Below, piece by piece: positions 29,316-48,933 of a stretch of DNA of 64,000 nt; the first letter of the stretch is position 1; each line of letters begins with the position of its first letter. The stretch covers positions 62,001-126,000 of the forward strand of contig JACAEF010000007.1 of NCBI GenBank assembly GCA_013388985.1. The letters are read 5' to 3'. Under the pieces are notes generated by a model that saw only the letters and a list, made by a program, of their open reading frames with translations, had not been told where the DNA came from and searched no databases. Source of the DNA: Rhodocyclaceae bacterium. GTDB lineage: Bacteria > Pseudomonadota > Gammaproteobacteria > Burkholderiales > Rhodocyclaceae. A program made the translations under genes and the position numbers.

Positions 29316-31191
29316 TCAGCCTCACCCTGATCCAGCCGCGCACGCTGTTGATGAACCACAGCGCTTGGGCGCGCGAGAGGTCTTCGATGCGCACGCGCCG
29401 CTCGACGATTTCACCCCGCGCCAGCAGCTCGGCGCGCAGCACGCCCGGCAGCAGCCCGGCATCGAGCGATGGCGTGACGCGCTCGCCGTCGAGCTCGAGC
29501 ACGACGTTGCCGCGCGTGAATTCGGTGATCTCGCCCTGCGCATTCCACAGCAGCGTGTCGAACACGCCCGGCGGCGGACCGAAGGGCGCATAGGCGGTGC
29601 GTTCCGTGGTCTTGTGGAGGAGGAATTCCGCCTCGCCCTCGATCGGCTGGCTGGCGAGCACGACCGGAGCAGGTTCATGCGTCGGCGCCAGCGGATGGGC
29701 CTCGGCGCGCGCTTCGCCCTGCCGGTCGAGCAAGAGCCGCACCCGCCAGTCGCCGCTTCGGTGAGCCGCGGCGACTTCTCCAAGCACGGCCTCGACGCGC
29801 TCTCGCTCGCAGGGAAAGCCAAAATGCTCGGCGCTCGCGCCAAGCCGTTCGAGATGACGGTCGAGCAAAACGTAATCGCCGTGCCTGAGCGCGAGCGTTT
29901 CAAGTAGCTCGAAGCCCGCCGTCGCGCGCAGCAGGAAGCGGCGCTTGACCAGCCATTCGGCATATTCCGCCGCCGGCTCGGAATCAAAGACGATGCCGCT
30001 GCCGATACCGCAAATGGCCCGCCCCCCTTCGCCCCCCTCGCGGGGGGTTGCAGATGGCTCGCTGCGCTCGAATATGAGGGCGTCACCGAAGGCACTCGTC
30101 CCGGTTTGCGCCGTAGGCCACAGCCGCGTTTGCTTGGGGCGGCCCGGCGCAAACGCTGCCGTATTTTTTCTCTGCCCGGCGCTTCGGTCGATGGTCACGG
30201 TGCGGATGCCGACATTGAAGGTGGCGTGGCCGCCGGGGCGGATCAGGCCGATCGCGCCGCAATAGGCGCCGCGCGGCGCATCCTCCAGCGCCGCGATCGC
30301 GGCCATCGCCGCGACCTTCGGCGCGCCGGTGACCGAGCCGCAGGGAAACAGCGCGCCGAACACCCCGGCCAGGCCGACTTCCGGCCGCGTCACGCACTGC
30401 ACGGTCGAGCTCATCTGCCAGGCGGTGGGCAGCGCATCGAGCGCGAACGATTCCGGCACGCAGACCGTGCCGAGCCGCGCGATGCGGGCCAGATCGTTGC
30501 GCATCAGATCGACGATCATCAGGTTTTCGGCGCGATCCTTTTCCGACCGCCGCAGCCTTTCGGCGGCGGCCGCATCGGCACGCGGATCGGCGTGGCGCGG
30601 CGCGGTGCCCTTCATCGGCCGCGTGGTGAGCACGCCGTCCGGCCGCCAGTCGAAGAACAGCTCGGGCGACACCGAGAGGATCTCCCATGCGTCATCCTGT
30701 AGATGCAGGCAGTAGCCGGCAGGCTGGGCGGCGACAAGCGCCGCGAACAGCCGCTCACCGCGGCCGGAGAAATTGCTGACTACCCGCGTGGTCAGATTCA
30801 CCTGATAAAAGTCGCCGTCGGCGATGCGCCGGCGCAGACTCTCGATTGCGCCGCAGGCAGCGGCTTCCCCCGTCGCGATGTGCCAGAGGCCGCAATGAAA
30901 GTCTTCGTCTGTTGCCGGTTCCGCCCCGTCCTCGGGCGCGGCATGGACCGCAAAGGCTGCCAGTGGCAGGAAGCCTGCCGGCGGCCGCACCTCGAGCGCG
31001 GCATCGAAGGCCGGCGCGGCCTCATAGGCGACGAAGCCGACCACCCAGCGGCCGGCTTGGGCCGCCTGCATCGCCGCGTCGAGCACCGCCGCCACCTCGT
31101 CGAGCGAATACGCGACGAGCCGCGCCAGCGGCGTGGCGAAGCGCAGCCGCAGACGCGCATCGCCCTGCGGAAAATCGACCCAGGCTTTCAC
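29296..31191 (-). CDS. Aminodeoxychorismate synthase component I fused to aminodeoxychorismate lyase
   Basis: The 631-residue PabB-PabC fusion makes p-aminobenzoate for folate from chorismate. The PabB part (about 1-350) has [48 protein letters not shown] and [11 protein letters not shown]; the PabC part (about 400-631) is a fold-type IV PLP enzyme with [20 protein letters not shown] and [12 protein letters not shown]. The start is GTG at 31191, overlapping the cobQ stop by 4 bp. Between RTVTIDRS and [11 protein letters not shown] about 53 extra residues are encoded by a repeat element. The protein remains in frame; whether activity is affected cannot be seen. Confidence 0.92.
30017..30154 (-). 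repeat. Composite palindromic element, copy 1 (in frame inside pabBC)
   Basis: Read on the minus strand: a stem-loop with arms GTTTGC/GCAAAC and 15-nt loop GCCGGGCCGCCCCAA (30154-30128), a 78-nt spacer ending in CGAGCGCAGCGAG, then AACCCCCCGCGAGGGGGG and CGAAGGGGGGCGGGC (30049-30017). The 33-bp end differs by one base from 45900-45932 and the order of parts is the same there. GTTTGCGCCG and CGGCGCAAAC (30104-30113, 30145-30154) form a wider inverted repeat. It contributes most of a roughly 53-residue insertion in PabB. Confidence 0.85.
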
Positions 31192-32630
31192 GGCAGATGG
31201 GGCCCGAGCGCCGCCTCGACCGCATCGGCCAGCCGCTCCAGATCGGCCTCGCGCCGCGCGGCGAGATCGACCGGCGCGAGGCCCCGCGCGCCGGCCCAAT
31301 CGAGCAGCGCGGCCAACGCCTCGGGATGGTCGAACAGCCCGTGGCAATAGCTGCCGAGAATCTGCCCGTCGTCCGATACCGCGCCATCGAGCCGGCCATC
31401 GTCGAGCGCCACGGCCGGCCGCGCGAGCGCCGCGCCGGTGGTGACGCCCATGTGGATCTCGTAACCCATCATCCGTGCCGTCTCGCCAGCGCCGACTTTC
31501 AGGTTCCCCGTCACGTTGCGCAATTGTTTTTCCGCTTCGAGCGTCGTCTCGCAGTCGAGGAGCCCCAGCCCCGCGACGCTGCCGGGCCGGCCTTCCACGC
31601 CCAGCGGATCGTGGATCGCGCGGCCGAGCATCTGGAAGCCGCCGCAAATCCCGATCAGCTTGCCGCCATAGCGCAGGTGACGACGGATGCCAGCTTCATG
31701 CCCCTGCGCGCGCAGCCAGGCGAGGTCGGCCTGCACCGACTTCGAGCCGGGCAGCACGATCAGATCGCAGGGCGGCAACGCCTGCCCCGGCCCGACCCAG
31801 CGGAAGTCGATCCCGGGATGAAGGCGCAGCGGATCGAGATCGTTGGCGTTCGAGATGCGCGGAAACACCGGCGCCGCGACGCTGAGCTTCGCTTCTCCGC
31901 CACGCTCGGAATGGTGCGCAAGCGCATCCTCGGCATCGAGGAACAGGCCATGCAGATACGGAATCACGCCCAGCACCGGCTTGCCGGTCTTCCCGGCGAG
32001 CCAGTCGAGGCCGGGCTGCAAGAGGCCGATGTCGCCGCGGAACTTGTTGATCACCAGCCCCGTAACGCGCCGCCGCTCGGCTTGCGAAAGGCATTCGAGC
32101 GTGCCGACCATGTGCGCGAGCACGCCGCCGCGGTCGATGTCGCCGACCAGCCAAACCGGAATGTCGACGGCCTCGGCGAAACCCATGTTGGCGATGTCGC
32201 GGTCCCTGAGATTCACCTCGGCCGGGCTGCCGGCGCCCTCGACGATCACGCAGTCGAATTCGCGGGTCAGCCGCCGCCACGATTCGAGCACCGCCGCCAT
32301 CGCCACGCGCTTGTAGTCGTGGTAAGCGCGGGCATCGAGGTCGGCCGCCACCTTGCCCTGCACGATCACCTGCGCGCGGCGATCCGTGTTGGGCTTCAAC
32401 AGCACGGGGTTGAAGTCGATGCGCGGCGCGAGCCCCGCCGCCTGCGCCTGCAGCGCCTGGGCGCGGCCGATCTCGCCGCCGTCGACGGTCACCGCGGAAT
32501 TGAGCGCCATGTTCTGCGGCTTGAACGGCGCGACGCGCACGCCACGCCGATGCAGGATGCGGCACAGCGCCGCCACCAGCACGCTCTTGCCGGCATCCGA
32601 GGTGCAGCCTTGTATCATCAACGCCTTCAT
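31188..32630 (-). CDS. cobQ: Cobyric acid synthase
   Basis: CobQ amidates four side chains of adenosylcobyrinic acid a,c-diamide using glutamine and ATP. The 480-residue product has an ATPase-like N-terminal domain ([25 protein letters not shown]) and a class I glutamine amidotransferase domain with the nucleophile Cys in [14 protein letters not shown] and the His in [14 protein letters not shown]. The ATG at 32630 abuts the divergent cbiB ATG at 32631; a second Met five residues in (32618) is possible. [20 protein letters not shown] contains a 26-bp dispersed motif. It overlaps pabBC by 4 bp. Confidence 0.95.
31474..31499 (-). repeat. 26-bp dispersed motif, copy 8 (inside cobQ)
   Basis: On the minus strand it reads AAAGTCGGCGCTGG, CGAG, ACGGCACG. 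It is in the same sense as cobQ and translated KVGAGETA just before the conserved GYEIHMG segment. Confidence 0.83.
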
Positions 32631-33548
32631 ATGCCGGATTTTCTCACGCCGCCAACGATCGCCCTCGCCGCCGTCCTGCTCGACCGGCTCTTCGGCGAGC
32701 CGCAGCGCTTTCATCCGCTGGTCGGCTTCGGGCGTTTGGCCGATTTTGTCGAGCAGCGCTTGCGTCGTGGCGCGCCGGGCCATCCCGTCGGCAACCGGCT
32801 GCGCGGCCTTTTCGGTTGGACGCTGCTCGTCGCGCCGCCGGTGGCGCTGGCGGTGTGGCTTGCGCATCCGCTCGTCGATCTCGTCCTGCTTGCTTTCGCC
32901 TTGGGCGGCAAAAGCCTCGGCGAGCATGCCAAGGCGGTCGAAGTGCCGCTGGCCGCCGGCGATCTCGTCACGGCACGCGAGGCGGTCTCCCGCATCGTCA
33001 GCCGCGATGCCGCGCATCTGGATGAGGCGGGCGTGGCCACCGCGGCGGTCGAGTCGGTGCTGGAAAACGGCCATGATGCCGTGTTCGGCGCGCTGTTCTG
33101 GTTCTTCGTCGCCGGCGGCGCCGGGGCGCTTCTCTTTCGGCTCGCCAACACGCTCGATGCGATGTGGGGCTACCGCGACGACCGTCGCCGTTACTTCGGC
33201 TGGGCGGCGGCGCGCCTCGACGATCTCTTGGGCTTCATTCCCGCGCGACTGACGGCCTCGACCTATGCGCTGCTGGGCAGCACGCGCACGGCGATTGCCT
33301 GCTGGCGCGCGCAGGCGCCCGTCTGGGCGAGCCCCAACGCCGGACCGGTGATGGCGGCGGGCTGCGGGGCGCTGAAAGTCGGCGCTGGCGGCACGGCACG
33401 CTATCACGGCATCGACGAAGCGCGCCCCCTGCTGGGCTGTGGGCCGGCGCCACGGGTGGCCGACATCCGCCGCGCGCTGCGCCTCGTCGAACACGGCCTG
33501 TGGCTGTGGCTGGCGGTCTTCTTCGTCTGGAGCCTCGCCCGTGCTTGA
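32631..33548 (+). CDS. cbiB: Adenosylcobinamide-phosphate synthase
   Basis: CbiB attaches (R)-1-amino-2-propanol phosphate to adenosylcobyric acid. The 305-residue membrane protein has the family start [57 protein letters not shown] and [15 protein letters not shown]. Its next segment [12 protein letters not shown] falls where relatives have a GxxLGG-type motif, so the dispersed 26-bp motif here replaces rather than adds residues (family memory). The start abuts that of cobQ with no spacer, and the 3' end overlaps cobD by 8 bp. Confidence 0.95.
33375..33400 (+). repeat. 26-bp dispersed motif, copy 9 (inside cbiB)
   Basis: It reads AAAGTCGGCGCTGG, CGGC, ACGGCACG. It is in the same sense as cbiB and translated KVGAGGTAR. 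Confidence 0.85.
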
Positions 33549-34473
33549 ACATGGCGGGTGCCTGATCGAAGCCGCGCGGCGCTTCGGCATCCCGGTCGCC
33601 GACTGGCTCGATCTGTCGACCGGCATCGCGCCCTGGCCCTACCCGCTGCCCTTGCCGCCGCCGGAAGTCTGGCAGCGGCTGCCGGAGGAGAACGACGGTC
33701 TCGAAGAAGCAGCACGCGCCTTCTATGGCGCCGAGGTGCTGCCCGTGCCCGGCAGCCAGTGGGCGATCGAGACGATCCCGCGCCTGTTGCCGCCGGGGCG
33801 GGTCATGATGCCGCAGCCGATCTACGCCGAGCATCCGCACGCCTGGGCCGCGGCCGGCCACACGCGGGTCGGCTGGGACGCGCCGGCCGATTACGCCGTC
33901 GTCTGCAATCCGAACAACCCGAGCGGAGAACGCTATAGCCGCAGCGAGTTGCTCTCGCTCGCCGCGAGAGTGCGGCTGCTCGTCGTCGATGAGGCCTTCA
34001 TCGACGCGGAACCCCGCGAATCGCTCGCTGGCAGCGGCGCAGACAATACCCTCGTGCTGCGCTCGCTGGGCAAGTTCTTTGGCCTCGCCGGCGTGCGCTT
34101 GGGCTTCGTGCTCGGCCCGGCGGCGTGGCGGCAACGGCTGCGGGGCCACCTCTCGCCCTGGGCGGTGGCGCATCCGGCGCGCTGGGCGGCGAGGCTCGCG
34201 CTGGCCGATCGCGGCTGGCAGGCGGCGCAGCGCGAACGCCTGTTGGCAGCCGCGCGGCGTCTCGACGCGACGCTGCGCAGCTTGGGCACGCCGGCCGGCT
34301 GTGCGCTGTTTTGCTACATCGCCACGCCACGGGCGGAAGCGCTCTTCGAGCGCCTCGCCCGCTGCGGCATCCTCGTGCGCCGATTCGACGATCCGCCCGC
34401 GCTGCGTTTCGGCCTGCCCGGCGATGAGGCACAATGGCGCCGACTGGAAGACGCCCTGAAAGACATCGGATGA
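33541..34473 (+). CDS. cobD: L-threonine-O-3-phosphate decarboxylase
   Basis: This PLP enzyme supplies aminopropanol phosphate for CbiB. The 310-residue product, read from GTG at 33541, has [54 protein letters not shown] and the PLP lysine in [17 protein letters not shown]. It overlaps cbiB by 8 bp and btuF by 4 bp, so cbiB-cobD-btuF are translationally coupled. Some databases name this family CobC; the decarboxylase name fits the Salmonella convention. Confidence 0.93.
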
Positions 34474-35360
34474 AAACGCTGCTCTGGTTGTTCGCCCTCT
34501 TCGCCTGCGCCGCGCGCGCCGAGATCGCGCTCACCGACGACACGGGTGCGCCCGTGCGCCTGCCCGCGCCGGCTGCACGCATCGTCAGCCTCGCGCCGCA
34601 CGTCACCGAGACGCTGTTCGCCGCCGGCGCGGGCGAGAAGATCGTCGGCGCGGTCGATTACAGCGACTTTCCCGAGGCGGCGAAGAAGATCCCGCGCATC
34701 GGCGGCTACTCGCGGCTCGATCTCGAGGCGATCGCGGCGATGAAGCCCGACCTCGCGATCGGCTGGGCCTCCGGCAACAGCCCGGCGCACATCGACAAAC
34801 TGCGCGCGCTGGGCATTCCGGTCTTCCTCGTCCAGCCGCATGGACTCGACGATGTCGCGGTGAATCTCGAACGCTTCGGCGCGCTCGCCGGCACGGCGGA
34901 GCTTGCGCGCCCCGCTGCGGCGGCATTCCGCGCCCGGCTCGACAAGCTGCGCAGCCGCTACGCCGGCCGCCCGCCGGTGCGCATCTTCTACCAGGTCTGG
35001 AACCAGCCCTTGATGACCGTCGGCGGCGGCCAGATCATTTCCGACGTCATCAAGCTGTGCGGCGGAGAAAACGTCTTCTCCGATCTCAAGCCGCTCGCGC
35101 CGAAAGTCACGGTGGAGGCCGTGCTCGCCGCCGATCCCGAGGTCATCGTCGCCTCGGGCATGGGCGAGGCGCGACCGGAATGGGTGGAGCACTGGCGCAA
35201 ATGGCCGACGCTGACTGCGGTCCGCCAGGACAATCTGTTCTTCATCCCGCCCGACCTGATCCAGCGCCCGACGCCGCGGCTGCTCGAAGGCGCGGCGCGG
35301 CTGTGCGAGCAGCTGGAGACGGCGCGCGGGAAACGCATGCAGCAGAGAGGAAACCGATGA
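34470..35360 (+). CDS. btuF: Cobalamin-binding periplasmic protein BtuF
   Basis: The 296-residue product has a signal peptide ([17 protein letters not shown]) and the two-lobed cobalamin-binding fold: VSLAPHVTETLFAAGAGEKIVG, AMKPDLAIGWASGNSPAHIDKL, IFYQVWNQPLMTVGGGQIIS and ADPEVIVASGMG. It would hand cobalamin to BtuCD, which is encoded 9 kb away beside another BtuF-like gene. It lies in the cbiB-cobD operon with 4-bp overlaps on both sides. Confidence 0.92.
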   Translation: MKTLLWLFALFACAARAEIALTDDTGAPVRLPAPAARIVSLAPHVTETLFAAGAGEKIVGAVDYSDFPEAAKKIPRIGGYSRLDLEAIAAMKPDLAIGWASGNSPAHIDKLRALGIPVFLVQPHGLDDVAVNLERFGALAGTAELARPAAAAFRARLDKLRSRYAGRPPVRIFYQVWNQPLMTVGGGQIISDVIKLCGGENVFSDLKPLAPKVTVEAVLAADPEVIVASGMGEARPEWVEHWRKWPTLTAVRQDNLFFIPPDLIQRPTPRLLEGAARLCEQLETARGKRMQQRGNR

Positions 35361-35824
35361 ATCACCCTCTTCGCACCGTCGTCACCGCGCTGGCCCTCTC
35401 GCTTCCCTGCCTGCCGGCACTGGGGGAGGCCAGCGGGCCGCTGAAAACTTTCCAGCCGCCGCTCACGCCCGAGCTGAAGGCGCGCCTCAAGCAGGCCGAT
35501 CCCGCCGCCGGAGCGCGCTTTTTCGAGCGCAAGTGCTCGCAATGCCACGATGGCGAGAAGACCGGCGCGCATGCGAAAGGGCCGCTCTTGTGGAACGTGT
35601 TCGGCCGGCGCGCCGGCACCATCGCCGGGTTTGCATTCTCGCCGGCGATGCAGGCGGCCGGCGTCGTCTGGGATTTCGCCACGCTGGACTATTACCTCGC
35701 CGACACCGAGCGCGCCGTGCCGGGACGGGCGATGGATTTCGCCGGCATCACCGATCCGGCATTGCGCGCCGCCGTGGTCCTTTACTTGAGCCGGCTCAAC
35801 GATTCCCCGCCGCCGCTGCCTTGA
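35357..35824 (+). CDS. Class I c-type cytochrome
   Basis: The 155-residue product has a signal peptide, one haem c motif CSQCH (about residues 59-63) and a distal Met candidate in FSPAMQ or GRAMDF, a pattern like cytochrome c2/c550. It is the last gene of the cbiB-cobD-btuF run, starting inside the btuF stop (ATGA). No cobalamin role is known for such cytochromes; the coupling may only reflect gene packing. The electron donor and acceptor cannot be named. Confidence 0.88.
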   Translation: MNHPLRTVVTALALSLPCLPALGEASGPLKTFQPPLTPELKARLKQADPAAGARFFERKCSQCHDGEKTGAHAKGPLLWNVFGRRAGTIAGFAFSPAMQAAGVVWDFATLDYYLADTERAVPGRAMDFAGITDPALRAAVVLYLSRLNDSPPPLP

Positions 35825-35887
35825 GGGTTCGCAAGGCATTGTTGTGCTGCTAGAATTCGCGCCTTTTTGGCGCAAGCCGCCTTGGGG

Positions 35888-35947
35888 CCGCAGCGGGGTT
35901 CCGCGCTGCGGTTTTTAAGTGACGCGGGGCAGGATCGCCCCGCAGCG
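35888..35947 (+). promoter_or_regulatory. Candidate transcription attenuator upstream of speD-speE
   Basis: CCGCAGCG (35888-35895) and CGCTGCGG (35904-35911) form an 8-bp stem followed by TTTTT (35912-35916), a standard intrinsic terminator between a TAGAAT-like -10 (35851-35856) and the ATG at 35963. CCGCAGCG occurs again at 35940-35947 and could pair with the same CGCTGCGG instead, breaking the terminator. A further hairpin GCGGGGC/GCCCCGC (35924-35930, 35937-35943) overlaps the second copy. Mutually exclusive pairing is read from sequence; the signal is unknown. Confidence 0.55.
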
Positions 35948-35962
35948 ATTGGGGGAACCGCC

Positions 35963-37198
35963 ATGCAAGGCCTTCACCTGACCGCCGATCTCTATCAGTG
36001 CGGTTGCAATCTTTCGTTGCTCGTCGAGGCCGACGCCCTCGCCGAATTGTGCCGTCGCCACACGCGTGAATCCGGACTGACGCTGGTGGACGAAAAATGG
36101 TTCACCTTTCCCGACCACGACGGCCAGCCCGGCGGCGTGACCGGCATGCTGCTCCTGGCCGAGTCGCATCTGGCCGTGCACACCTGGCCGGAGCGGCGCG
36201 GCGTGACGCTCGATGTCTATGTCTGCAACTTCTGCCAGGACAACTCGGCCAAGGCCGAGCGGCTGGCCACTGCACTGATCGCCGCTTTCGCGCCGGCGCG
36301 CGCGCAGACCAACCGCATCCTGCGCGGCGATGCCGACACCGCCGGCGCCTGCGACGAACTGGTCCTCGAAGCGCTCAACGAGCAGAGCGCCTATGGCTAC
36401 CGCATCCGCGAGCGGCTGCTCACGCAGCAGACCGGCTGCGGCCAGCTGCTGGAAATCTTCGACACGCCGCAGTTCGGCCGCGTGATGCGCCTCGATGGGC
36501 ATTTCATGACCTCGGAGCGCGAGGAGTTCTTCTACCACGAGGCCCTCGTCCATCCGGCCGCGATCGCCCACCCCGCGCCGCGCCGGGCGCTGATCATCGG
36601 CGGCGGTGACGGCGGTGCGGCCGAGGAGCTGCTCAAACACCCGAGCATCGAGCGCGTCGTCATCGCCGAGCTCGACGCCGACGTGCTCGCAGCTTCGAAA
36701 CGCCATCTCGAAGCCGTGCATCGCAACGTCTTCGCCGACCCGCGGCTCGAAGTGAATATCGGCGACGGCTTCGCCTGGCTAGAAGCGGCCACGGAACGCT
36801 TCGATCTGGTGCTCTTCGACCTCACCGATCCGGACACGCCGGCCGCCTCGCTCTACACGGCGGCCTCGTTCGCCAAGGCACGCCGGGCCCTGGCGCCCGG
36901 CGGCGCGCTGGTGCTGCACATCGGCTCGCCCATCTTCCATCCGGAGCGCGTGCGGCAGATCGTCGCCGAGCTGCGCCAGGTCTTCCCCGCCGTGCATTGC
37001 CATGGGCTCTACATCCCGCTCTACGGCGCCTACTGGGGGCTGGCCGTGGCATCGGACAGCCTCGACCCGACCGGGCTCGATGCCACGGCGGTCGCGCAAC
37101 GGCTCGAGGAGCGCGGCATCCGCGACCTGCGCTACTACAACGCCGAGGTGCATGGCGCGCTGTTCGCGCTGCCGAATTTCTATCGCGAGCTGGTGTAA
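35963..37198 (+). CDS. Fused S-adenosylmethionine decarboxylase - spermidine synthase
   Basis: The 411-residue product joins SpeD and SpeE. The first about 120 residues are an AdoMet decarboxylase proenzyme: the pyruvoyl group would form at Ser68 in LLLAESHLAVHTWPE, with Cys in YVCNFCQDNS. From about residue 135 it is an aminopropyltransferase: SAYGYRIRERLL, EEFFYHEALVHPA, ALIIGGGDGGAAEELLKH and VLFDLTDPD. The fusion would pass decarboxylated SAM directly to the step that makes spermidine from putrescine. GGGGGA lies 8-12 bases before the ATG. Upstream is the attenuator-like leader. Confidence 0.93.
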   Translation: MQGLHLTADLYQCGCNLSLLVEADALAELCRRHTRESGLTLVDEKWFTFPDHDGQPGGVTGMLLLAESHLAVHTWPERRGVTLDVYVCNFCQDNSAKAERLATALIAAFAPARAQTNRILRGDADTAGACDELVLEALNEQSAYGYRIRERLLTQQTGCGQLLEIFDTPQFGRVMRLDGHFMTSEREEFFYHEALVHPAAIAHPAPRRALIIGGGDGGAAEELLKHPSIERVVIAELDADVLAASKRHLEAVHRNVFADPRLEVNIGDGFAWLEAATERFDLVLFDLTDPDTPAASLYTAASFAKARRALAPGGALVLHIGSPIFHPERVRQIVAELRQVFPAVHCHGLYIPLYGAYWGLAVASDSLDPTGLDATAVAQRLEERGIRDLRYYNAEVHGALFALPNFYRELV

Positions 37199-37276
37199 GC
37201 GGCCTGCGCCGACCCCTCCTTCAGCTGCACCGTGAGACATGGCTGCGCGTCCATCGCGGACGCGCCTCGCCATCTC

Positions 37277-37301
37277 AAAAAAAAGCCCGGCTGGACCGGG
37301 C
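37277..37301 (-). terminator. Intrinsic terminator of the cyd operon
   Basis: On the minus strand GCCCGG and CCGGGC form a 6-bp stem around TCCAG, followed by eight T (plus-strand A-run 37277-37284). It lies 26 bp past the cydX stop. It could also help end speD-speE transcripts from the other side, but the A-run is weak in that direction. Confidence 0.85.
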
Positions 37302-37326
37302 ATGAGGAGTCATGCAAGCAAGCGTT

Positions 37327-37437
37327 TCAATTCGTATGACCAGTGTCGGCATTCTCGTGCGCGTCGTGCCAGAGCGTATTGACGACCGCCAGCAAGACGG
37401 CGAAGCCGAGGCCGAGAATCCAGGTGAAATACCACAT
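37327..37437 (-). CDS. cydX: Cytochrome bd-type oxidase small subunit CydX
   Basis: A 36-residue product beginning MWYFTWILGLGFAVLLAVVN contains one membrane helix and matches the CydX/YbgT family start, in which Trp and Tyr/Phe open the helix. It begins 12 bp after cydB. CydX stabilises the haems of the CydAB oxidase. The intact frame, position and helix make this a firm call despite its size. Confidence 0.93.
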   Translation of the reverse strand: MWYFTWILGLGFAVLLAVVNTLWHDAHENADTGHTN

Positions 37438-37448
37438 GGCGCGTCTCC

Positions 37449-38585: not shown

Positions 38586-38598
38586 TCTCGCCTCCCAT

Positions 38599-40158
38599 TC
38601 AAGCCGTCGCGGGTTGCGCCATCGAGGCCGCCGAGGGCAATGCCGCCTGTGGCCCGAGGCGGGCATACTTGAACATCAGATACAGCTCGACGACGAGCAG
38701 CAGCGTATAAAAACCGATGAAGGCTGCCAGCGAGCCCCAGACGTCACTTGTCGCAAGTGTCGACGCGGAAAGATGTGTGGGCAGCAAGCCATGCACGGTC
38801 CACGGCTGCCGGCCATATTCGGCGACGAACCAGCCGGCATGGGCCGCAAGCCACGGCAAGGGCAACGACCAGAACGCCCATTTGAGCAGCCAGGGACGCT
38901 CGGCAAAGGTGCCTTTCGCCGCATGCCAGAAGGCGGCGATGAACAGCGCCAGCATCAGGAAAGCCGCGAGCACCATGAAACGGAAGGTCCAGAACAAGGG
39001 CCACACTTTCGGTACCGACTCACGCGCGGCAAGCTTGATCGTCGCCTCGTCGGCCTGTGCGACATCCGTCACGTACTTCTTGAGCAAAAGCCCATAACCA
39101 AGATCACCCTGATATTGGGCGAGCCTCTCGCGGGCAGCCGCATCGTTGGGGTCCTTGCGTATCGCCTCGAGGGCCAGCACCGCTTCGCGGCCGTCGCGGA
39201 TGCGCCGCTCGTTCTCGGCGACGATGTCTTTGATGCCTGGCAGGATCTTGTCCGTCGAGCGCGTAGCGAGCAATCCGAGCACCCATGGAATCCGCACCTC
39301 CCAGTCGTTCCTCATCTCGCGTTCGTTGGCCGAGGCGATCACGGTGAAGCCGGCCGGCGCGGGTTCGGCCTCCCACATGCCTTCCATCGCAGCGAGCTTG
39401 CTTTGCTGGGCGTGCGTCACCGTGTAGCCCGATTCGTCGCCGAGCACGATCACCGACGCCGCCGAAGCAAGGCCAAAGGCGGCCGCGATGCGGAACGAGC
39501 GCTTGGCGAAATCGACATGGCGGTTTCTGAGCAGATACCACGACGAGATCGCGAGCACGAAGATGGAACCGGTGACATAGCCGGCCGAGACGGTATGCAC
39601 GAATTTGGACTGCGCGGCGGGATTGAAGACGATCGCCCAGAAATCGATGAGTTCCATGCGCAGCGTGTGGGGATTGAAGACGGCGCCGACCGGCTCTTGC
39701 ATCCAGCCGTTGGCGATCAGGATCAGCACTGCCGACAGATTCGTGCCAAGCGCCATCAACGTGGTGACGACGAGGTGCTGCGCCTTCGACAACCGCTGCC
39801 AGCCGAAGAAAAAGAGACCGACCATCGTCGATTCGAGGAAAAAGGCCATCAACCCTTCGATCGCCAGCGGCGCACCGAAGATGTCGCCGACATAATGCGA
39901 GTAATAGGCCCAGTTGGTGCCGAACTGGAATTCCATCGTGAGCCCGGTGGTCACCCCGAGCGCGAAGTTGATGCCGAACAGCTTTCCCCAAAACTGCGTC
40001 ATGTCGCGATAGATCGTCCTGCCGGACAATACATAGGCTGATTCCATGATGACGAGCAGCCAGGAGAGGCCCAGCGTCAGGGGCACGAAAAGAAAGTGAT
40101 AAAGCGCCGTCGCGGCGAACTGCACGCGCGCTAGATCAACGGCCTGCGGATCGATCAT
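38599..40158 (-). CDS. cydA: Cytochrome bd ubiquinol oxidase subunit I
   Basis: The 519-residue product starts at the ATG at 40158. It shows RVQFAATALYHFLFVPLTLG with the haem-ligand His21, WGKLFGINFALGVTTGLTME, and GRQPWTVHGLLPTHLS near the C-terminus. A long quinol loop (about 250-390) makes it the CydA long-loop type, with length close to E. coli CydA. Its start overlaps the cydP 3' end by 23 bp. Confidence 0.96.
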   Translation of the reverse strand: MIDPQAVDLARVQFAATALYHFLFVPLTLGLSWLLVIMESAYVLSGRTIYRDMTQFWGKLFGINFALGVTTGLTMEFQFGTNWAYYSHYVGDIFGAPLAIEGLMAFFLESTMVGLFFFGWQRLSKAQHLVVTTLMALGTNLSAVLILIANGWMQEPVGAVFNPHTLRMELIDFWAIVFNPAAQSKFVHTVSAGYVTGSIFVLAISSWYLLRNRHVDFAKRSFRIAAAFGLASAASVIVLGDESGYTVTHAQQSKLAAMEGMWEAEPAPAGFTVIASANEREMRNDWEVRIPWVLGLLATRSTDKILPGIKDIVAENERRIRDGREAVLALEAIRKDPNDAAARERLAQYQGDLGYGLLLKKYVTDVAQADEATIKLAARESVPKVWPLFWTFRFMVLAAFLMLALFIAAFWHAAKGTFAERPWLLKWAFWSLPLPWLAAHAGWFVAEYGRQPWTVHGLLPTHLSASTLATSDVWGSLAAFIGFYTLLLVVELYLMFKYARLGPQAALPSAASMAQPATA

Positions 40159-40387
40159 TGCTTTCCTCCTTGGTTGGGTAACCGGATTCCGTCCTCGCCA
40201 GCGCACCGAGCCAATGTGCCTGCGCAGCCTGGGTATCGACCGTGACGCGAACCGGCACGACGCAGACCCACCAGAGCGCCATCAGCAGCACTGCCTTCAG
40301 CAACAGCACGAGTGCGAGCTCGCATCCGAAAAACGAACGCAACACTTTTCGGAACACGGCCGGGAGATAAGCCTCTCGCACTGTCAT
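40136..40387 (-). CDS. cydP: Cytochrome oxidase-associated small protein CydP
   Basis: The 83-residue product has one membrane helix (ELALVLLLKAVLLMALWWVCVV) after a short basic N-terminus, as in the CydP family found before cydA in betaproteobacteria. It overlaps cydA by 23 bp, which indicates coupled translation. The biochemical role is not settled; an accessory or assembly part is assumed from its constant association with cydAB. Confidence 0.82.
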   Translation of the reverse strand: MTVREAYLPAVFRKVLRSFFGCELALVLLLKAVLLMALWWVCVVPVRVTVDTQAAQAHWLGALARTESGYPTKEESNDRSAGR

Positions 40388-40473
40388 GACTCATGCAAAA
40401 CGAAACCGCGGCGATGTTATCGAGAGGAAAAGCGGAACGGAATGCGGTTTGTTGACGCGCGCCCGTCTGCCGC

Positions 40474-40488
40474 GCGTCAGCCTGACGC
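40474..40488. promoter_or_regulatory. Putative RegA/PrrA binding site upstream of cydPABX
   Basis: The 15-bp palindrome GCGTCAGCCTGACGC has the half-sites GCGTC and GACGC separated by 5 bp, which fits the inverted GCGNC/GNCGC pattern reported for RegA/PrrA-type regulators. It lies 87-101 bp before the cydP start and just after the stop of the RegA-like gene itself. Further GACGC and CGCGTC half-sites lie within 30 bp. Confidence 0.5.
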
Positions 40489-40496
40489 AGGATGCT

Positions 40497-41045
40497 TCAG
40501 CTCTTGGGGGCGTGCTTCTTGAGCTTGCGCTGGAGCGTGCGGCGCTCCATTCCCATGCGGCGTGCGGCGGCCGAGACGTTCCAGTTGCAACCGAGCAACG
40601 TCCGTTGCAATGTTTCCCATTCCAGCTGCCGGAGCGTCATCGGCTCGCTGGGTGGCTCGTTGCTTGCAGTGCAGTGGCCAGCGAAAGCGTCGATGATCTG
40701 GTCGACGTCGACGGGCTTGGCAAAGTAATGCGTTGCGCCGAGGCGAAGCGCTTCGACGGCGGTGGCGACACTGGCATAACCGGTCAGCAGCACGATACGC
40801 ATCTCGGGTTCGATCCCGCGCAAGTCCTTGAGCACGTGCAGGCCGTTCTTCGCCAGTGGGCCGAGCATGAGATCGATGACTGCATGACTCGGATGCGCTG
40901 CAGCGGCCAGCCGCAAAGCCGCATCGGCATCCGCGGCAGCGAGCACCTTCCAGCCCCGCTTTTCGAAGCTGCGACCGAGAACCTTCCGGAAAGTGTCATT
41001 GTCGTCGACGATCAGGCAAGTCGACACATGCGATGCATTTTTCAT
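40497..41045 (-). CDS. regA: RegA/PrrA/ActR-type redox response regulator
   Basis: The 182-residue product starts at the ATG at 41045. The receiver domain has the acidic pair in CLIVDDNDTF, phosphoacceptor Asp58 in HAVIDLML and Lys in HYFAKPVDVD. The C-terminus has the Fis-type helix-turn-helix NVSAAARRMGMERRTLQRKL typical of RegA. Such regulators control oxidases and redox pathways with a RegB-type kinase; no kinase is found next to it. It is 109 bp upstream of cydP on the same strand. The 213 bp between it and cbiA hold no gene I can support. Confidence 0.9.
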   Translation of the reverse strand: MKNASHVSTCLIVDDNDTFRKVLGRSFEKRGWKVLAAADADAALRLAAAAHPSHAVIDLMLGPLAKNGLHVLKDLRGIEPEMRIVLLTGYASVATAVEALRLGATHYFAKPVDVDQIIDAFAGHCTASNEPPSEPMTLRQLEWETLQRTLLGCNWNVSAAARRMGMERRTLQRKLKKHAPKS

Positions 41046-41258
41046 CGCGGAAAATCTTAGCCGAAGATCGCTTTGCCGATTCGGCATGCGGCGATATGCC
41101 ACACTGATACCGTCGGGCCATCGAGGTCGATCATGGAAGCAACCCCCAGCGCTGCACGAAGCGCAAGCGAAAAAGCCGGGCAGGAAGTGGCGCGTGTCGC
41201 GCCGCTCGCGAAGCGCGCGAGAGCGCGGCGATTTCGGCAGCGGATGGGCCGTGCTCGT

Positions 41259-42545
41259 TCACGGCAGGAACAGTCGGGCCGTCGCCTCGGCATTCGACGG
41301 GAAGTAGGCGTGCATGTAACTCGCCGTGAGCCGCCCGTGCCGGAAGACCGCTTCGCCGCCCTGGCCGGAGAGCTTCTTCGCCTGCACGCTCGGCGCGAGC
41401 GACGTCTCGACGGTCGAGTAATGGAAGGTATGGCCGCGCAAGTTCCCTTCGGGCAGCGCCGCTTCGAGCAAGCCAAGCCCGGCAAGCCGCTTCTGCATGC
41501 GCGTGCGCCCCGGCAAGAGACCGAACATCGGATGTTCGCGCCCATCGAGATCGACGAGCGTCTCGAAGCAGGCCATCATGCCGCCACATTCGGCAAGGAG
41601 GGGCAGGCCCCGCGCGACATGCGCTTGCAAGGATGCACGCAGGGTATCGTTGGCGGCGATCTTCTCCGCATGCAGCTCGGGATAGCCGCCCGGCAGCCAG
41701 ACCGCGTCGCAATCCGGCAGGCGCTCATCGGCGAGCGGCGAGAAGAAGACGAGCCGCGCCCCCAACGTTTCCAGGCATTCGAGGTTGGCCGGGTAGAGGA
41801 AGCAGAAGGCTTCATCGCGCGCCACCGCGATCGTCTTGCCGGCGAGCAGCGGTTGAAAAGTCGGCGCTGGCGGGACGGCACCCAAATCGACCGTCGGCGG
41901 CAATTCGGCCGCCGGCGTAGCAGCCAGAAGTTCCACGAGCCGGTCGAGCCGCGCTGCGAGTCCGGCAATCTCGGCGGCGGGCAAGAGGCCGAGATGGCGC
42001 TCGGGCAGCGCGGCTTCTACGTCACGCGGCAGATGCCCGGCCCAGCGAATATCGTCGGGCAGGCTGTCACGGCACAGCCGCGCGTGAAACTCGCTGCCGA
42101 CACGGTTGGCGAGCGCATGGGTGATGGGCGCGCCATCGCGGTAATGCTTGAGACCCCAGGCCACGGCGCCGAAGCTGCCGCCCATCGCCGATGCATCGAT
42201 GACGAGCAGGATCGGCAGATTCAGCCTCCGCGCAAGCGCCGCGCCGGTGGGCTGCGAGTCGTAGAGCCCCATCACGCCCTCGACGAGGATCAGGTCGGCC
42301 TCCTGCGCCGCACGCGCGAGACGCCAGCGCGCATCCTCCTCGCCACACATCACGAGATCGACGTTCTCGCAAGGCGCGCCGGAGGCGATCGCATGGATCT
42401 GCGGATCGAGGAAATCCGGTCCGCACTTGAACACCCGCACGCGCCGGCCCAGGCGAGTGTGCAAACGGGCGAGCGCCGCGACCAGCGTGGTCTTGCCGTG
42501 GCCGGAGGCCGGTGCGGCGACGAGGAGCGCGGGGCAGACGGTCAT
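41259..42545 (-). CDS. cbiA: Cobyrinic acid a,c-diamide synthase
   Basis: The enzyme amidates the a and c side chains of cobyrinic acid (or hydrogenobyrinic acid) using glutamine. The 428-residue product has P-loop VAAPASGHGKTTLVAAL, FKCGPDFLDPQIH and a class I amidotransferase region with the nucleophile Cys in PLLAECGGMMACFE. The linker between the two domains contains [10 protein letters not shown], written by a 26-bp dispersed motif. It is the last gene of the riboswitch-led btu operon and overlaps btuR by one base (TGATG). Confidence 0.95.
   Translation of the reverse strand: MTVCPALLVAAPASGHGKTTLVAALARLHTRLGRRVRVFKCGPDFLDPQIHAIASGAPCENVDLVMCGEEDARWRLARAAQEADLILVEGVMGLYDSQPTGAALARRLNLPILLVIDASAMGGSFGAVAWGLKHYRDGAPITHALANRVGSEFHARLCRDSLPDDIRWAGHLPRDVEAALPERHLGLLPAAEIAGLAARLDRLVELLAATPAAELPPTVDLGAVPPAPTFQPLLAGKTIAVARDEAFCFLYPANLECLETLGARLVFFSPLADERLPDCDAVWLPGGYPELHAEKIAANDTLRASLQAHVARGLPLLAECGGMMACFETLVDLDGREHPMFGLLPGRTRMQKRLAGLGLLEAALPEGNLRGHTFHYSTVETSLAPSVQAKKLSGQGGEAVFRHGRLTASYMHAYFPSNAEATARLFLP
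41857..41882 (+). repeat. 26-bp dispersed motif, copy 10 (inside cbiA)
   Basis: It reads AAAGTCGGCGCTGG, CGGG, ACGGCACC. It is antisense to cbiA and read as GAVPPAPTF in the interdomain linker. Confidence 0.85.
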
Positions 42546-43138
42546 CAGAACTCCACTCCCGGCATCGCCGGGATGCCGGAACCAAACGCATGCTTGACGA
42601 GCCGCATCTCGGTCACCGTGTCGGCCGCCGCGATCAGCGCTTCCGGCGCGGCGCGGCCGGTGACGACGAGGTGCTGCATCGCGGGCCGCGCGCGGATCGC
42701 GGCGAGGATTTCGTCGAGATCGAGCCAGCGGTATTTGAACGCATAGGTGAATTCGTCGAGGATCACCAAATCGACCTCGGGATCGGCGAGCGCCTGCCGC
42801 GCCACGGCCCATGCGGCGCGCGCCGCGGCGGCATCCTTTTCCGCATCCTGCGTCTCCCAGGTGAAGCCGGCGCCCAGCACATGCCAGCGCACCTTCGGCT
42901 GGGCGCGGAAGAAGGCCTCTTCGCCCGTGTCGCTCCGGCTCTTGACGAACTGCACGACGACCGCGCGCATCCCATGCCCGAGCGCGCGAGCGAGCAGCCC
43001 GAAGGCTGCTGTCGATTTTCCCTTGCCGTTGCCGGTGAACAGCAGGAAGACGCCGCGTGCCACTGTCGCCGCGGCGATCTTGGCGTCGATCACGGCTTTC
43101 TTTCGCCGCATTCGACTGGAATGGCCAGCGGTACTCAT
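42545..43138 (-). CDS. btuR: Cob(I)yrinic acid a,c-diamide adenosyltransferase
   Basis: The enzyme adds the 5'-deoxyadenosyl group to reduced corrinoids. The 197-residue product has the P-loop FTGNGKGKSTAAFGLLARAL, VVVQFVKS, VDLVILDEFTYAFKYRWLD and HLVVTGRAAPEALI, the CobA/CobO/BtuR pattern. It is translationally coupled on both sides (4-bp overlap with the btuF-like gene, 1-bp with cbiA). Confidence 0.95.
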   Translation of the reverse strand: MSTAGHSSRMRRKKAVIDAKIAAATVARGVFLLFTGNGKGKSTAAFGLLARALGHGMRAVVVQFVKSRSDTGEEAFFRAQPKVRWHVLGAGFTWETQDAEKDAAAARAAWAVARQALADPEVDLVILDEFTYAFKYRWLDLDEILAAIRARPAMQHLVVTGRAAPEALIAAADTVTEMRLVKHAFGSGIPAMPGVEF

Positions 43139-43929
43139 CGCCGCAGCTCCTCCATCGCCCGACGCAGCTCGTCGAGCCCTTCGAGCAGCACCGGCGCCGG
43201 GTGCAGAAACTTGTCGCCATCGAGCGCGACGAGCCGCGCGCCCCGAGGCTCGGGAATCGCCGCGCAACTTTCCGCAATCTGGCGGGTAAAGATGAAGACC
43301 AGATCAGGTTTTAGTTCCTCGATGCGCGCCGCGATTTGCTCGGCGGTGTCCTCGCGCGCGAGATGCCGAACGCCCGCAGTGGTTTCGGCAAGGCGGAAAC
43401 CGGCCATTTCGAACAGTTCCGCCAGCCACGTTTCGCGACCGAACGAGTAGGGCTGCCCCGTACAGGAGGAAAGCAACAACACTCGCTCGCCTTTCCCGAT
43501 ACCTGCGGCCTTCTGGCGCCATCGATACGCAAACGCCGCAACCCGGGCTTCATGGTCGGGGACGGCGGCAGCACGGCCGATTTCGCGCAGGTTGTCCTCG
43601 ATCTCGCTCATGGCACGAAAGCTGGACAAGCGCAAGGAACGGGCGCCCGGAGGGGTGATGGCAGCGAGGACCTCTGCCTTGGTCCAGTTCGATGTGATCA
43701 CCAGGTCGGGCTTGAGCGCGGCGATCGCCCGGCCGTCGGGGTCCATCACGCCACCGGTATCGGGCGCTTTGATCCTGCGCTCATAGCGGCTGGCGCCGAC
43801 GATGCACTCCATCAGTCCCAGCCATTCGAGCTGTAACGTGATGTAGGGCGATTGACTGACGATGCGCGGACATTGGGCAGCATGAACCACGCCGGACAAC
43901 AGAAAAAAAGCCATAAGCCAATGACGCAT
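43135..43929 (-). CDS. Second BtuF-like periplasmic corrinoid-binding protein
   Basis: The 264-residue product has a signal peptide (MRHWLMAFFLLSGVVHA) and the periplasmic-binding fold IVSQSPYITLQLEWLGLMEC, ALKPDLVITSNW and ELKPDLVFIFTRQIAE. It sits between btuD and btuR, so it should be the binding protein of this BtuCD. It differs strongly from the BtuF at 34.5 kb, so the two may prefer different corrinoids or deliver to the same transporter. Its substrate is inferred from position. Confidence 0.85.
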   Translation of the reverse strand: MRHWLMAFFLLSGVVHAAQCPRIVSQSPYITLQLEWLGLMECIVGASRYERRIKAPDTGGVMDPDGRAIAALKPDLVITSNWTKAEVLAAITPPGARSLRLSSFRAMSEIEDNLREIGRAAAVPDHEARVAAFAYRWRQKAAGIGKGERVLLLSSCTGQPYSFGRETWLAELFEMAGFRLAETTAGVRHLAREDTAEQIAARIEELKPDLVFIFTRQIAESCAAIPEPRGARLVALDGDKFLHPAPVLLEGLDELRRAMEELRR

Positions 43930-43932
43930 GAT

Positions 43933-44775
43933 TCACTCCGGTACGAAATGCGGATGAGGCCGCTCGACCCATCGCAGCCGGCAGCCGTAGAGTTCTGACA
44001 GAACATCCTCGCGCAGCACTTCTTCGCTCGAGCCGATGCGATGGCGCGAGTCGCCGTAAAGCAAAAGCGCCTGATCGCAGAAGCGCAGCGCGAGGTTCGG
44101 ATCGTGCAGCACCATGACGACGGCCGCGCCCTCCTCGCGTGCGAGCCTCGAAAACAGCGCGAGGACGGCGAGCTGGTGGTTGAGATCGAGATGGGCGAGC
44201 GGTTCGTCGAGCAGATAGAGCCTGGGCCGCTGCGCGAGCAGCATGGCAATCCTCACGCGCTGGTATTCGCCGCCCGAAAGCGTATGAATCTCGCGCTCCT
44301 CGAAACCGGCGAGGCCCACGTCGGCGAGCGCGGCGCGCGCGATGCCAATGTCCTCGTCCGCTTCCCACGCCCAGCGGGGCAGGTGCGGATGGCGGCCGAT
44401 CAACACCGTCTCGAGCACGGTGCTGGCAAAGGGATCGCCGCCGTCCTGGCCCAGCCAGCCGCGCCGCTGCGCCGCTTCGCGCGGCCCATGCTCGGCGTAA
44501 GTTCTGCCATCGAGATGCAGCGTGCCGGCATCTTGCGCGCGTAGACCGGCGAGGGTGGAAAGCAGCGTGCTCTTGCCTGCGCCGTTCCTGCCCAGGATGG
44601 CGAGTCGGCCGCCCGCCGGCAGCGCGAGGTCGAGCGAGAGGCAGACCTTGTGCAGTCCCACGCTGACGGCGAGACTCTCCGCGCGCAGGATCGGCGCTTC
44701 CGCCGGGCCGTCCCAAGGAAGCGCGCGCCCCCCAGTGGGGGGCAGCGAGCCGCTTTTGCGAGCGTGGGGGGGCAT
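43933..44775 (-). CDS. btuD: Cobalamin ABC transporter ATP-binding protein
   Basis: The 280-residue product has Walker A LGRNGAGKSTLL, Q-loop GWLGQDGGDPF, signature LSGGEYQRVRIAML and Walker B RLYLLDEPLAHLD. The start is the ATG at 44775, overlapping the btuC stop. The first about 27 residues (MPPHARKSGSLPPTGGRALP...) are encoded by a GC-rich repeat element and have no counterpart in the family, so the repeat appears to supply the start codon. No better start lies between there and residue 35. Confidence 0.9.
   Translation of the reverse strand: MPPHARKSGSLPPTGGRALPWDGPAEAPILRAESLAVSVGLHKVCLSLDLALPAGGRLAILGRNGAGKSTLLSTLAGLRAQDAGTLHLDGRTYAEHGPREAAQRRGWLGQDGGDPFASTVLETVLIGRHPHLPRWAWEADEDIGIARAALADVGLAGFEEREIHTLSGGEYQRVRIAMLLAQRPRLYLLDEPLAHLDLNHQLAVLALFSRLAREEGAAVVMVLHDPNLALRFCDQALLLYGDSRHRIGSSEEVLREDVLSELYGCRLRWVERPHPHFVPE
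44694..44742 (+). repeat. Stem-loop repeat with conserved loop, copy 2 (5' end of btuD)
   Basis: Arms GCGCTTCC (44694-44701) and GGAAGCGC (44717-44724) flank the loop GCCGGGCCGTCCCAA, which differs by one base from the loop at 30128-30154 although the arms share no sequence with it. It is followed by CCCCCCAGTGGGGGG (44728-44742) and GCAGCGAGC. It lies wholly within the btuD coding region. Confidence 0.8.
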
Positions 44776-45764
44776 TATTTTTGCCCCCGCGAGAGGAGAT
44801 AAAGGAACACCGGCACGCCGATCAGGGCGGTGAGCACGCCCACCGGCAGTTGGATCGGGGCGACGACGGTGCGCGCCGCGGTGTCGGCGAGCACGAGGAG
44901 ACTGCCGCCGGCGAGCATCGCCGCGGGCAGCAGGAGGCGCTGGTCGTTGCCCATCCGTGGCCCGATCGCGAGCCGCACGAGATGCGGCACGATGAGCCCC
45001 ACGAAACCGATCGAGCCGGCCGTGGTCACCGCGCCGGCGGTGGCGAGCGAGGCGACGAAATAGACGAGACGCCGCAGCCTCGACACGGCCACTCCGAGCG
45101 CGGCGGCGGTTTCGGCGCCGCGGGCGAGCAGGTTCAGCTCGCGCGCGAAGGGCAGCGCGATGAGAAACGCCGCCGCCAGCAAAGCAAGCGCCAGGCCCGG
45201 TGTGCTGGTCTGCGACAGATCGCCCATCAGCCAGAACAGCATGCCGTGGATCTTCTGCTCGGGCGCGAGGGTGAGGATCAACGCGACCACCGCGCCGCAG
45301 CCGGCGGCGACCACGACGCCGGTGAGCAGGAGCCTTGTTTGCGTCCAGCCGCCCACACCATGCGCGAGGCCGAAGACCAGCAGCATCGCGGCGAGCGCGC
45401 CGGCGAAGGAAAAGCCGGCGACGCTCAAACCGGCCAGCCCGAGCAGCATGGCGGACAAGGCGCCGACACCGGCACCGCCGGAGATGCCGAGCACATACGG
45501 ATCGGCGAGCGGGTTTCTGAGCAGCACCTGCATCAGCGCGCCGGCCAAGGCCAGCAGGCCGCCGACGGCGAAGCCCGCCAATGCGCGCGGCAGGCGCAAA
45601 TCGAGAACGATCGCCGCCTGCGGTGCATCGCCGCCTGAAAGCGCCGCGAAGACGTCTGTCAGCGGCACCGCAACGCTCCCCGCCGCGAGCGCGATGACGA
45701 GGCTTCCCACGCTCAAGACGGCGAGCAGCACGAGCACCCACAGAGCGCGGCGGCGGGCGGGCAT
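44775..45764 (-). CDS. btuC: Cobalamin ABC transporter permease
   Basis: The 329-residue FecCD-type permease starts at the ATG at 45764. It has about ten hydrophobic helices and the family segments RLPRALAGFAVGGLLALAGA, NPLADPYVLGISGGAGVGAL and GSIGFVGLIVPHLVRLAIGP, where the GLIVPH turn contacts the ATPase. It is separated from btuB by a 168-bp spacer holding a composite repeat element, and its stop overlaps the btuD start. Confidence 0.94.
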   Translation of the reverse strand: MPARRRALWVLVLLAVLSVGSLVIALAAGSVAVPLTDVFAALSGGDAPQAAIVLDLRLPRALAGFAVGGLLALAGALMQVLLRNPLADPYVLGISGGAGVGALSAMLLGLAGLSVAGFSFAGALAAMLLVFGLAHGVGGWTQTRLLLTGVVVAAGCGAVVALILTLAPEQKIHGMLFWLMGDLSQTSTPGLALALLAAAFLIALPFARELNLLARGAETAAALGVAVSRLRRLVYFVASLATAGAVTTAGSIGFVGLIVPHLVRLAIGPRMGNDQRLLLPAAMLAGGSLLVLADTAARTVVAPIQLPVGVLTALIGVPVFLYLLSRGQK

Positions 45765-45780
45765 ATCACATCGGCGCAGT

Positions 45781-45932
45781 ATTGGCGAAGGGCCGCCCCG
45801 AGCCAATGCGGCACGCGCCGAAGGCGCACACCGCACCGTACCCTCTACGACAGACGCCCGTGATATCGAGCGCCGCGAAAAGCGGCACGAGCTGTTCAGA
45901 ACCCCCCGCGAGGGGGGTGAAGGGGGGCGGGC
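45781..45932 (+). repeat. Composite palindromic element, copy 2 (btuB-btuC spacer)
   Basis: The stem-loop ATTGGC / GCCAAT around loop GAAGGGCCGCCCCGA (45781-45807) is followed by about 92 nt with ACGCCCGTGATATCGAGCGCC and then AACCCCCCGCGAGGGGGG plus TGAAGGGGGGCGGGC (45900-45932). Order, orientation and most of the spacer match the element inside pabBC (30154 to 30017). The element ends at the btuB stop codon and fills nearly the whole spacer within this operon, so it may alter the btuB/btuC mRNA ratio. Confidence 0.85.
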
Positions 45933-47756: not shown

Positions 47757-47884
47757 GCAAGATTCTCCCTGTGCGGCCAGCGTCCCCGCAGGCCGAAACC
47801 AGACTCCGAAGCGGACGGGGGAGACGATGGGAGAAAACGGCAAGAGGGCGCCCGCTCTCCGCGCCGCACCCCGCAACGCTTCGA

Positions 47885-48060
47885 CCCATTCGTCCGTGGC
47901 CGGTCTCCGGGCTCGCGATCCCGATTCCGCCGCCTTCCCAGGACAATCGCCCAGTGGCATCGTGGCGGAACCATACTCGCTTACCGTTGCGGGGGCAGCA
48001 CAGGCCTCGTCTCGCGGACTCACCTGTTTCCCGTTTCACCCTACGCTTAGGGCACCTCGA
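47885..48060 (-). promoter_or_regulatory. Cobalamin riboswitch controlling the btuB operon
   Basis: Read on the minus strand, GGTGCC (48056-48051) opens the aptamer, followed by GGTGAGTCC, CTGCCCCCGCAACGGTAAGCG, the GCCACTG segment, CTGGGAAGG and the B12 box AGCCCGGAGACCGGCC ending near 47898. All conserved blocks are in the expected order. The 130 nt between the aptamer and the btuB start presumably hold the expression platform; I could not define a clear terminator there. High B12 should reduce expression of btuB-btuC-btuD-btuF-btuR-cbiA. Confidence 0.95.
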
Positions 48061-48928: not shown

Positions 48929-48933
48929 CACAC

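Follow-up and report, generated by a model that had tools for sequence, protein, structure and literature searches.

Three stem-loops with an almost identical 15-nt tip are found in a 64,000-nt stretch of a Rhodocyclaceae genome (contig JACAEF010000007.1, positions 62,001–126,000; this whole stretch is called the window). Their arms are completely different, yet still complementary. The question is what has been kept in these hairpins, the letters or the fold, and for which role. Copy 1 is found at 30126–30156 on the plus strand (arms 30126–30133 and 30149–30156, tip 30134–30148). The other two are on the minus strand: copy 2 at 44694–44724 (arms 44717–44724 and 44694–44701, tip 44702–44716) and copy 3 at 45779–45809 (arms 45802–45809 and 45779–45786, tip 45787–45801). 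The initial annotation had placed the three hairpins correctly, with near-identical tips and complementary arms. It gave arms of 8 bp for copy 2 and of 6 bp for the others; copies 1 and 2 both have 8 perfect pairs, and copy 3 has six pairs, a C-A mismatch and one further pair. The tip of copy 3 is the variant TCGGGGCGGCCCTTC, in which TT...GGC is replaced by TC...TTC.

With a nearly fixed tip and arms which vary in concert, these hairpins seem to have kept their fold and not their letters. We favour, with some reserve, the reading in which a small non-autonomous mobile repeat of the Burkholderiales ends on the right in this hairpin, and the hairpin is recognised by its fold.

Covarying arms around a fixed tip

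Taken by itself, the tip could occur in the window by chance: the pattern GGGCCGYCCC matches three times versus 1.14 expected, and three or more matches are obtained in 11 of 100 shuffles. In the whole genome the 15-nt tip TTGGGRCGGCCCGGC has ten exact matches and eight with one mismatch. All the exact tips have complementary arms, as do seven of the eight others, including L013 with one G-T pair and L016 with one mismatch. In the last one, L011, the arms are unpaired and the surrounding repeat is missing too; it was left out of the covariance model and its alignment (A1). Tips with two mismatches show no excess (57 matches in all versus 71 for a reversed control pattern), so the case rests on the closer matches. 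In 18 genomic copies, 16 of them distinct, 32 cells are doubly changed versus 8.2 after shuffling, with a covariation score of 0.571 versus 0.178; none of 500 shuffles is as high in either value. Seven of the eight arm pairs are doubly changed, a number reached by 24 of 500 shuffles. A covariance model with a count of covarying pairs had been suggested in the initial annotation; the model built from the genomic copies finds 27 copies in this genome at E < 0.001.

A pattern which leaves the arms free, GGGGGN{4,16}TTGGGRCGGCCCKGC, was run on GTDB genome contigs and on IMG/VR contigs. At least 119 stretches matched in the GTDB scan; the 80 matches listed come from Burkholderiales, Betaproteobacteria or unplaced Proteobacteria assemblies. 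Copies with the same loop and non-complementary flanks had been named beforehand as the observation that would speak against a structure. What we have found is that 148 of 183 distinct copies have at least five Watson-Crick pairs among the first six positions, versus about 23 after shuffling, and the structural claim stands. This is the case for 98 of the 125 bacterial copies and 50 of the 58 viral ones (11.4 and 11.3 with shuffled right arms). In 142 unique arm pairs 81% of the cells are Watson-Crick, versus 41% with shuffled columns and 29–48% when the arms are slid by 1–3 positions. The arms are very diverse: there are 80 different 7-nt left arms among 146 structured copies. The latter pass the pairing filter and have the left C-run, which implies nothing for the unpaired remainder; they also underlie the type B direction, context-pairing, ATGA and direct-repeat counts given below.

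The pairing does not depend on the neighbouring genes. It amounts to 90–93% of the cells in co-directional (n = 44), anti-directional (16), convergent (13) and divergent (6) contexts. Non-standard internal pairs are few, nine G-T versus 19 A-C (p 0.09), and at these small numbers there is no wobble excess on the plus strand; the count covers simply paired arms and leaves out 27 of 162 unique arm pairs, 14 of which pair by eye after a 2x3 internal loop. As DNA, both strands of the hairpin fold about equally, at -10.2 to -11.1 kcal/mol. As RNA, copies 1 and 2 reach -18.7 and -20.4 kcal/mol with z near -3, and copy 3 -12.3 kcal/mol with z -1.5.

Some loci are shared with sister species. In L043/L440 the hairpin has changed at one of 31 positions versus 39% of the body and 16–30% of the flanks; genome G002 holds two copies which match L043 (L436 and L440), so that the true counterpart is ambiguous. 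In L031/L442 it has also changed at one of 31 positions, versus 17% of the body and 12–14% of the flanks. The folded-strand constraint proposed in the initial annotation is thus supported both by the covariation and by the little change of the hairpin at these two loci. Two further loci have changed more. In L053/L438 four of 31 positions differ, versus 20%, with one compensated pair, one A-C mismatch and one tip change. In L045/L433 the body is missing in G002 and the hairpin is present, with seven of 31 positions changed, six of them in three compensated pairs; to judge from these letters, it may be either one old insertion or two.

Intermediate states are also found. Three viral copies seemingly at one locus, L126, L135 and L132, have arms GCCCGCC/GGCGGGC, GCCCGCC/GACGGGC and GCCTGTC/GACGGGC; the series C-G, C-A, T-A is a natural record of compensation. 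L446 has a one-mismatch intermediate, GTTGGC/GCAAAC. In L103, L123, L136 and L178, viral contigs with seemingly the same gene junction, the arms CGCCATGATC/GATCATGGCG are unchanged.

Two kinds of inserted repeats

By eye, the hairpin is the 3' (right) end of two kinds of repeats. Type B has about 75–90 bp: it starts with CCCCC(C)ACGCTC, followed by a C5/G5 hairpin and then by the variable arm, the tip and the second arm. Type A is longer, about 150–170 bp, with a different body, and has been seen in the genus and family of the window; the tip variants TC...TTC and related forms are found in it. There are also short forms with little beyond the hairpin (L063, L066). Tandem copies have a spacing of 75–117 bp, which is 75–77 bp in a Bordetella genome and up to 117 bp in Achromobacter.

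The repeats are insertions, since sister species have empty sites. The genes concerned (carA, carB, mreC, mreD, glmU, glmS, aroE, metG and acyP) are presumably those, as we named them by recognition of their proteins, without a family search. At the carA|carB junction a type B copy is present in one of 17 genomes read, which is the genome studied here. Copies are found 5' of glmS in three of 11 genomes (G016, G004, G014), 5' of aroE in three of 14 (G014, G015, G008) and 5' of acyP in one of 15 (G006); similar elements 5' of acyP were seen by eye in G009 and G004. In G004 the tip (L266) is seemingly split by another short GC-rich insertion.

The number of copies, as given by the covariance model, is also very variable. 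In 19 genomes of the genus, its own included, it goes from 0 to at least 150; G003 and G005 have none, the one-contig genome G017 has 13 and G009 has 149. In an even sample of the order, with 18 candidates scored per genome, at least 48 of 399 genomes and at least 30 of 158 genera match. In a sample of the class with 185 genomes only four match: this genome, another one of the same order and two outside the order, once each and weakly. Copies are also present on IMG/VR contigs, and eight plasmid records match one viral-contig copy by blastn.

The type B copies at glmS, aroE and acyP have the right arm GGAGGCA. The empty sites which we read lack this word, and we conclude that it is carried by the element; it is a plausible ribosome-binding site, to judge from its letters. 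On these same copies two models were rejected: as a general rule, that the arms are always copied from the target, and that the left arm pairs with the target in order to choose it (a guide model). In some other insertions there is room for target-derived arms. Direct repeats of at least 7 nt, in which the word at the right end is also found at the left of the element, are present in 13 of 126 copies versus 5.6 expected, and two of 1000 shuffles have as many; the count drops 20 of the 146 rows, which are tandem. The copies L339, L362, L391, L396 and L399 are found at A-tracts, which flank them on both sides; their left arms are rich in T, and some of them adjoin what looks like a reverse terminator.

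Operon context and possible explanations

Bacterial type B copies usually have the direction of both neighbouring genes (38 with, 10 against); in viral copies the numbers are 8 and 9. Gene direction was estimated from GC content in third position, a method with known errors which misjudged at least L073, and the counts omit copies with too little flank. In 46 distinct type A copies there is no preference (8 ++, 8 +-, 5 -+ and 7 --), with rough gene calls and crude typing. At the left edge of type B an ATGA (a -4 overlap) is present in 22 of 46 co-directional copies versus none of 19 anti-directional ones (p ~1e-4), and TRATG in three of the 46. In all, 31 of the 46 have a start at the left edge, and in 28 the frame runs past the tip: 20 of these frames stop within 33 nt after it and four are still open 80 codons from the start. 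An ATG or GTG is found near the stop in 19 of the 20 frames which end there, although this test is a loose one. By their position, type B copies thus often appear as mini-cistrons in operons which overlap start and stop codons. A conserved peptide from the tip was rejected, since all three tip frames are in use. GGAG, GAGG or AGGA occurs in the first 14 nt past the tip in 12 of 44 co-directional versus none of 16 anti-directional copies.

In the reading which we favour, an enzyme supplied in trans would recognise the hairpin by its fold and fixed tip, probably in the form of a single-stranded or extruded DNA hairpin. Copies with broken arms would then not be propagated. A body rich in GC and poor in stops, together with a right arm able to act as ribosome-binding site, may allow the repeat to persist within operons and even within genes. 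Recognition at the DNA level is suggested by the context-independent pairing and the missing wobble excess, which favour fold recognition in mobility over a role in mRNA; both may be true. Several points weigh against this reading. No transposase is tied to the repeat: the two families examined, PF01797 and PF00078, do not track the copy number. The target duplications are irregular: some copies have direct repeats of at least 7 nt and others none. The viral contigs may be partly bacterial or prophage DNA, and a blastn search of GenBank phage records with one viral-contig copy gave no match. The co-directional bias is predicted by a role in mRNA, as it is by neutral survival in operons. Finally, at two shared loci the hairpin is better conserved than mobility by itself would need; at the two further loci it has 4 and 7 changes out of 31.

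A function of the hairpin in mRNA is possible, but we give it a rather limited probability. It would be an intercistronic stabiliser or processing site, or it would mask the following ribosome-binding site as long as the mini-cistron has not been translated; the arms would covary by selection on the RNA fold, copy by copy. The co-directional bias of bacterial type B, the mini-cistrons with ATGA overlaps, the words resembling ribosome-binding sites after the tip and the stable RNA fold of copies 1 and 2 (weaker in copy 3) are in its favour. So is L045/L433, where a hairpin without body has three compensated arm changes. This function would also best explain the conservation at shared loci. However type A has no preferred direction, viral copies are almost evenly divided, anti-directional, convergent and divergent copies pair as well as the others, G-T pairs do not exceed A-C pairs, the use of three tip frames leaves no conserved peptide and both DNA strands fold about equally. 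At gathering scores no Rfam family was found over the hairpins of the window, and five viral loci searched at E<=1 gave a single match, unrelated and far under its gathering score. The RNA element mentioned in the initial annotation is made less likely by the Rfam, G-U and orientation results. Selection would not be required at all if one arm is rewritten by template switching on the other within the quasi-palindrome, with complementarity kept during drift. This fits the many arms with several simultaneous differences and no leftover mismatch, as well as the independence from context; it leaves unexplained the fixed tip and the two shared loci in which the body has changed more than the hairpin, and we consider it quite improbable. 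The single-step intermediates (L126/L135/L132 and L446) are also against it, a weak argument because template switching passes through such states too.

The initial annotation had also proposed a system of the REP/IS200 kind, and this part is not supported. Small size, a hairpin, high copy number and insertion polymorphism would agree with REP elements moved by a RAYT/TnpA-REP (Y1 HUH) transposase, and Y1 genes are present in two of the four genomes with most copies (G007 and G009). We judge it very unlikely: this genome, a draft of 156 contigs, has no PF01797 (Y1_Tnp) match, Y1 is missing in genomes with 148, 102 and 58 copies, and one Y1 is found in a genome with none, all of them drafts. 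Of 12 Y1 loci read none is flanked on both sides (L097 has a paired copy and L095 an unpaired tip), and by eye no GTAG or CGTC tag is found at the stem in the 146 listed copies. Reverse transcriptase (PF00078) was rejected as a partner. It is present in seven of the 19 genomes of the genus and does not track the copy number: G007, G009 and G015, with many copies, have it, G008 (102 copies) and G004 (58) have none, and G003, with no copies, has two. Chance resemblance of GC-rich inverted repeats would agree with the tip counts in the window, but it is refuted by the genome-wide and order-wide statistics and by the two weak single matches outside the order among the 185 genomes of the class sample; it deserves practically no weight. 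It is also conceivable, though unlikely, that only a folded single strand with fixed tip and free arms is recognised at the end of the element, which would be moved by machinery other than Y1/RAYT, with arms which can be rewritten at insertion. In some copies, for example L113 (GCGCATCAG), L143 (GGGCGCTGAG), L399 (TGAAAAA) and L319 (GGTCATGA), the right-arm word or the letters which continue it recur immediately to the left of the element. The order target, inverted arm, target would be the three-copy signature of templated copying.

Host genes of the three copies and related repeats

Copy 1 belongs to a type A repeat at 30021–30173 on the plus strand, a 153-bp insertion whose exact ends depend on the alignment. 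It lies in a pabB-pabC fusion gene, an open reading frame (ORF) at 29296–31647 on the minus strand with a predicted start. On that strand it is in frame and adds 51 codons to the chorismate-binding part of the PabB-PabC fusion. The Chorismate_bind match (residues 267–489, profile 8–231 of 257) ends right before the insertion. In five sister genomes residues 1–~72 and ~121–235 of the PabB query match as adjoining pieces. In the DNA alignment the stretch of copy 1 is a gap in four of them (L472, L473, L474 and L476); the fifth, L475, is omitted from this alignment and gives the same two-piece match. Rickettsia palindromic elements are also inserted in frame in protein genes. They resemble copy 1 in this respect, belong to another class and are likened here by description alone; RPE-4 and RPE-6 are named in PMC3733652.

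Copy 2 belongs to a type B repeat (44694–44773, minus strand) which separates the gene of a FecCD permease from that of a BtuD-like ABC ATPase. An ATG at 44775–44773 overlaps the permease stop as TAATG, and about 27 codons offered by the repeat, MPPHARKSGSLPPTGGRALPWDGPAEA, can be read in frame as the N-terminus of the ATPase. Apparently it supplies the start codon and N-terminus of this protein; the use of the ATG is deduced from the open frame. Copy 3 belongs to a type A repeat (45770–45932, minus strand, approximate ends) located after the stop of the gene for a TonB-dependent receptor (ORF 45933–48023) and before the start of the FecCD permease, which has a likely ATG at ~45764. In the same region we find a cobalamin riboswitch 5' of the receptor gene (47881–48074, minus strand) and a 6S RNA gene (48749–48929, plus strand).

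By its length, tandem spacing and hosts, type B very probably belongs to the family of the Beta-proteobacterial Repeat Element (BRE) described by Hot et al. 2011 (PMC3110155). The accessible text of that paper describes BRE in Bordetella as a GC-rich, mostly intergenic sequence of 75–91 bp, in tandem and variable among strains. It gives as hosts Bordetella, Azoarcus, Rhodoferax, Polaromonas, Acidovorax, Verminephrobacter and Delftia, and states that the function needs further study. Type B has matches in Bordetella, Polaromonas, Rhodoferax, Acidovorax and Achromobacter, with the tandem spacing of 75–77 bp in Bordetella. The same accessible text does not describe a hairpin, covariation, an insertion rule, insertion in overlaps or phage copies. 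For BRE, two to four copies are expected at the junction beside lexA in the species B. pertussis, B. bronchiseptica and B. parapertussis. Around lexA we found the tip in none of nine genomes of the genus of L362, a set in which two stretches are short and which may not include those species. A search of the available literature for the name BRE found no paper beyond PMC3110155, and searches with sequence strings gave unrelated papers only. Stem-loop families of Bordetella are named in the accessible part of PMC2267715.

Other repeats have some features in common with these. MIRU (mycobacterial interspersed repetitive units), in the available part of PMC12548453, are also intercistronic insertions at start/stop junctions, with an internal ORF coupled to the neighbours; by position alone the 22 of 46 co-directional type B copies which start in ATGA resemble them. 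They belong to another phylum, and no covarying terminal hairpin is mentioned there. Type A is unlike MIRU since it is also found inside a gene and in every orientation. REP/RAYT elements and the GTAG and CGTC palindromes, as presented in the accessible part of PMC3733652, are also short dispersed hairpins with high copy number, whose stems differ by family. Our repeat differs from them: no tag was seen, it has a fixed 15-nt tip with free arms, and it usually ends a longer repeat. The GTAG class differs also by its transposase, according to the same text, which reports the CGTC class without a transposase partner as well. As for an IS200/IS605 TnpA (Y1) of its own, there is none: the repeats are too short for a gene and the genome has no Y1_Tnp; TnpB was not searched.

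For a repeat family known since 2011 without a function, the anatomy is now precise: the tip is fixed, the sequence of the stem is free, gene overlaps are preferred as sites, and the hosts belong to a single order. Its copies are also a warning for annotation, since they can fuse in frame to proteins (PabB and apparently the BtuD-like ATPase) and create spurious small ORFs. The clean separation of fold and letters makes them a natural experiment in compensation, which bears on the role of the folded form in mobility or in gene expression.

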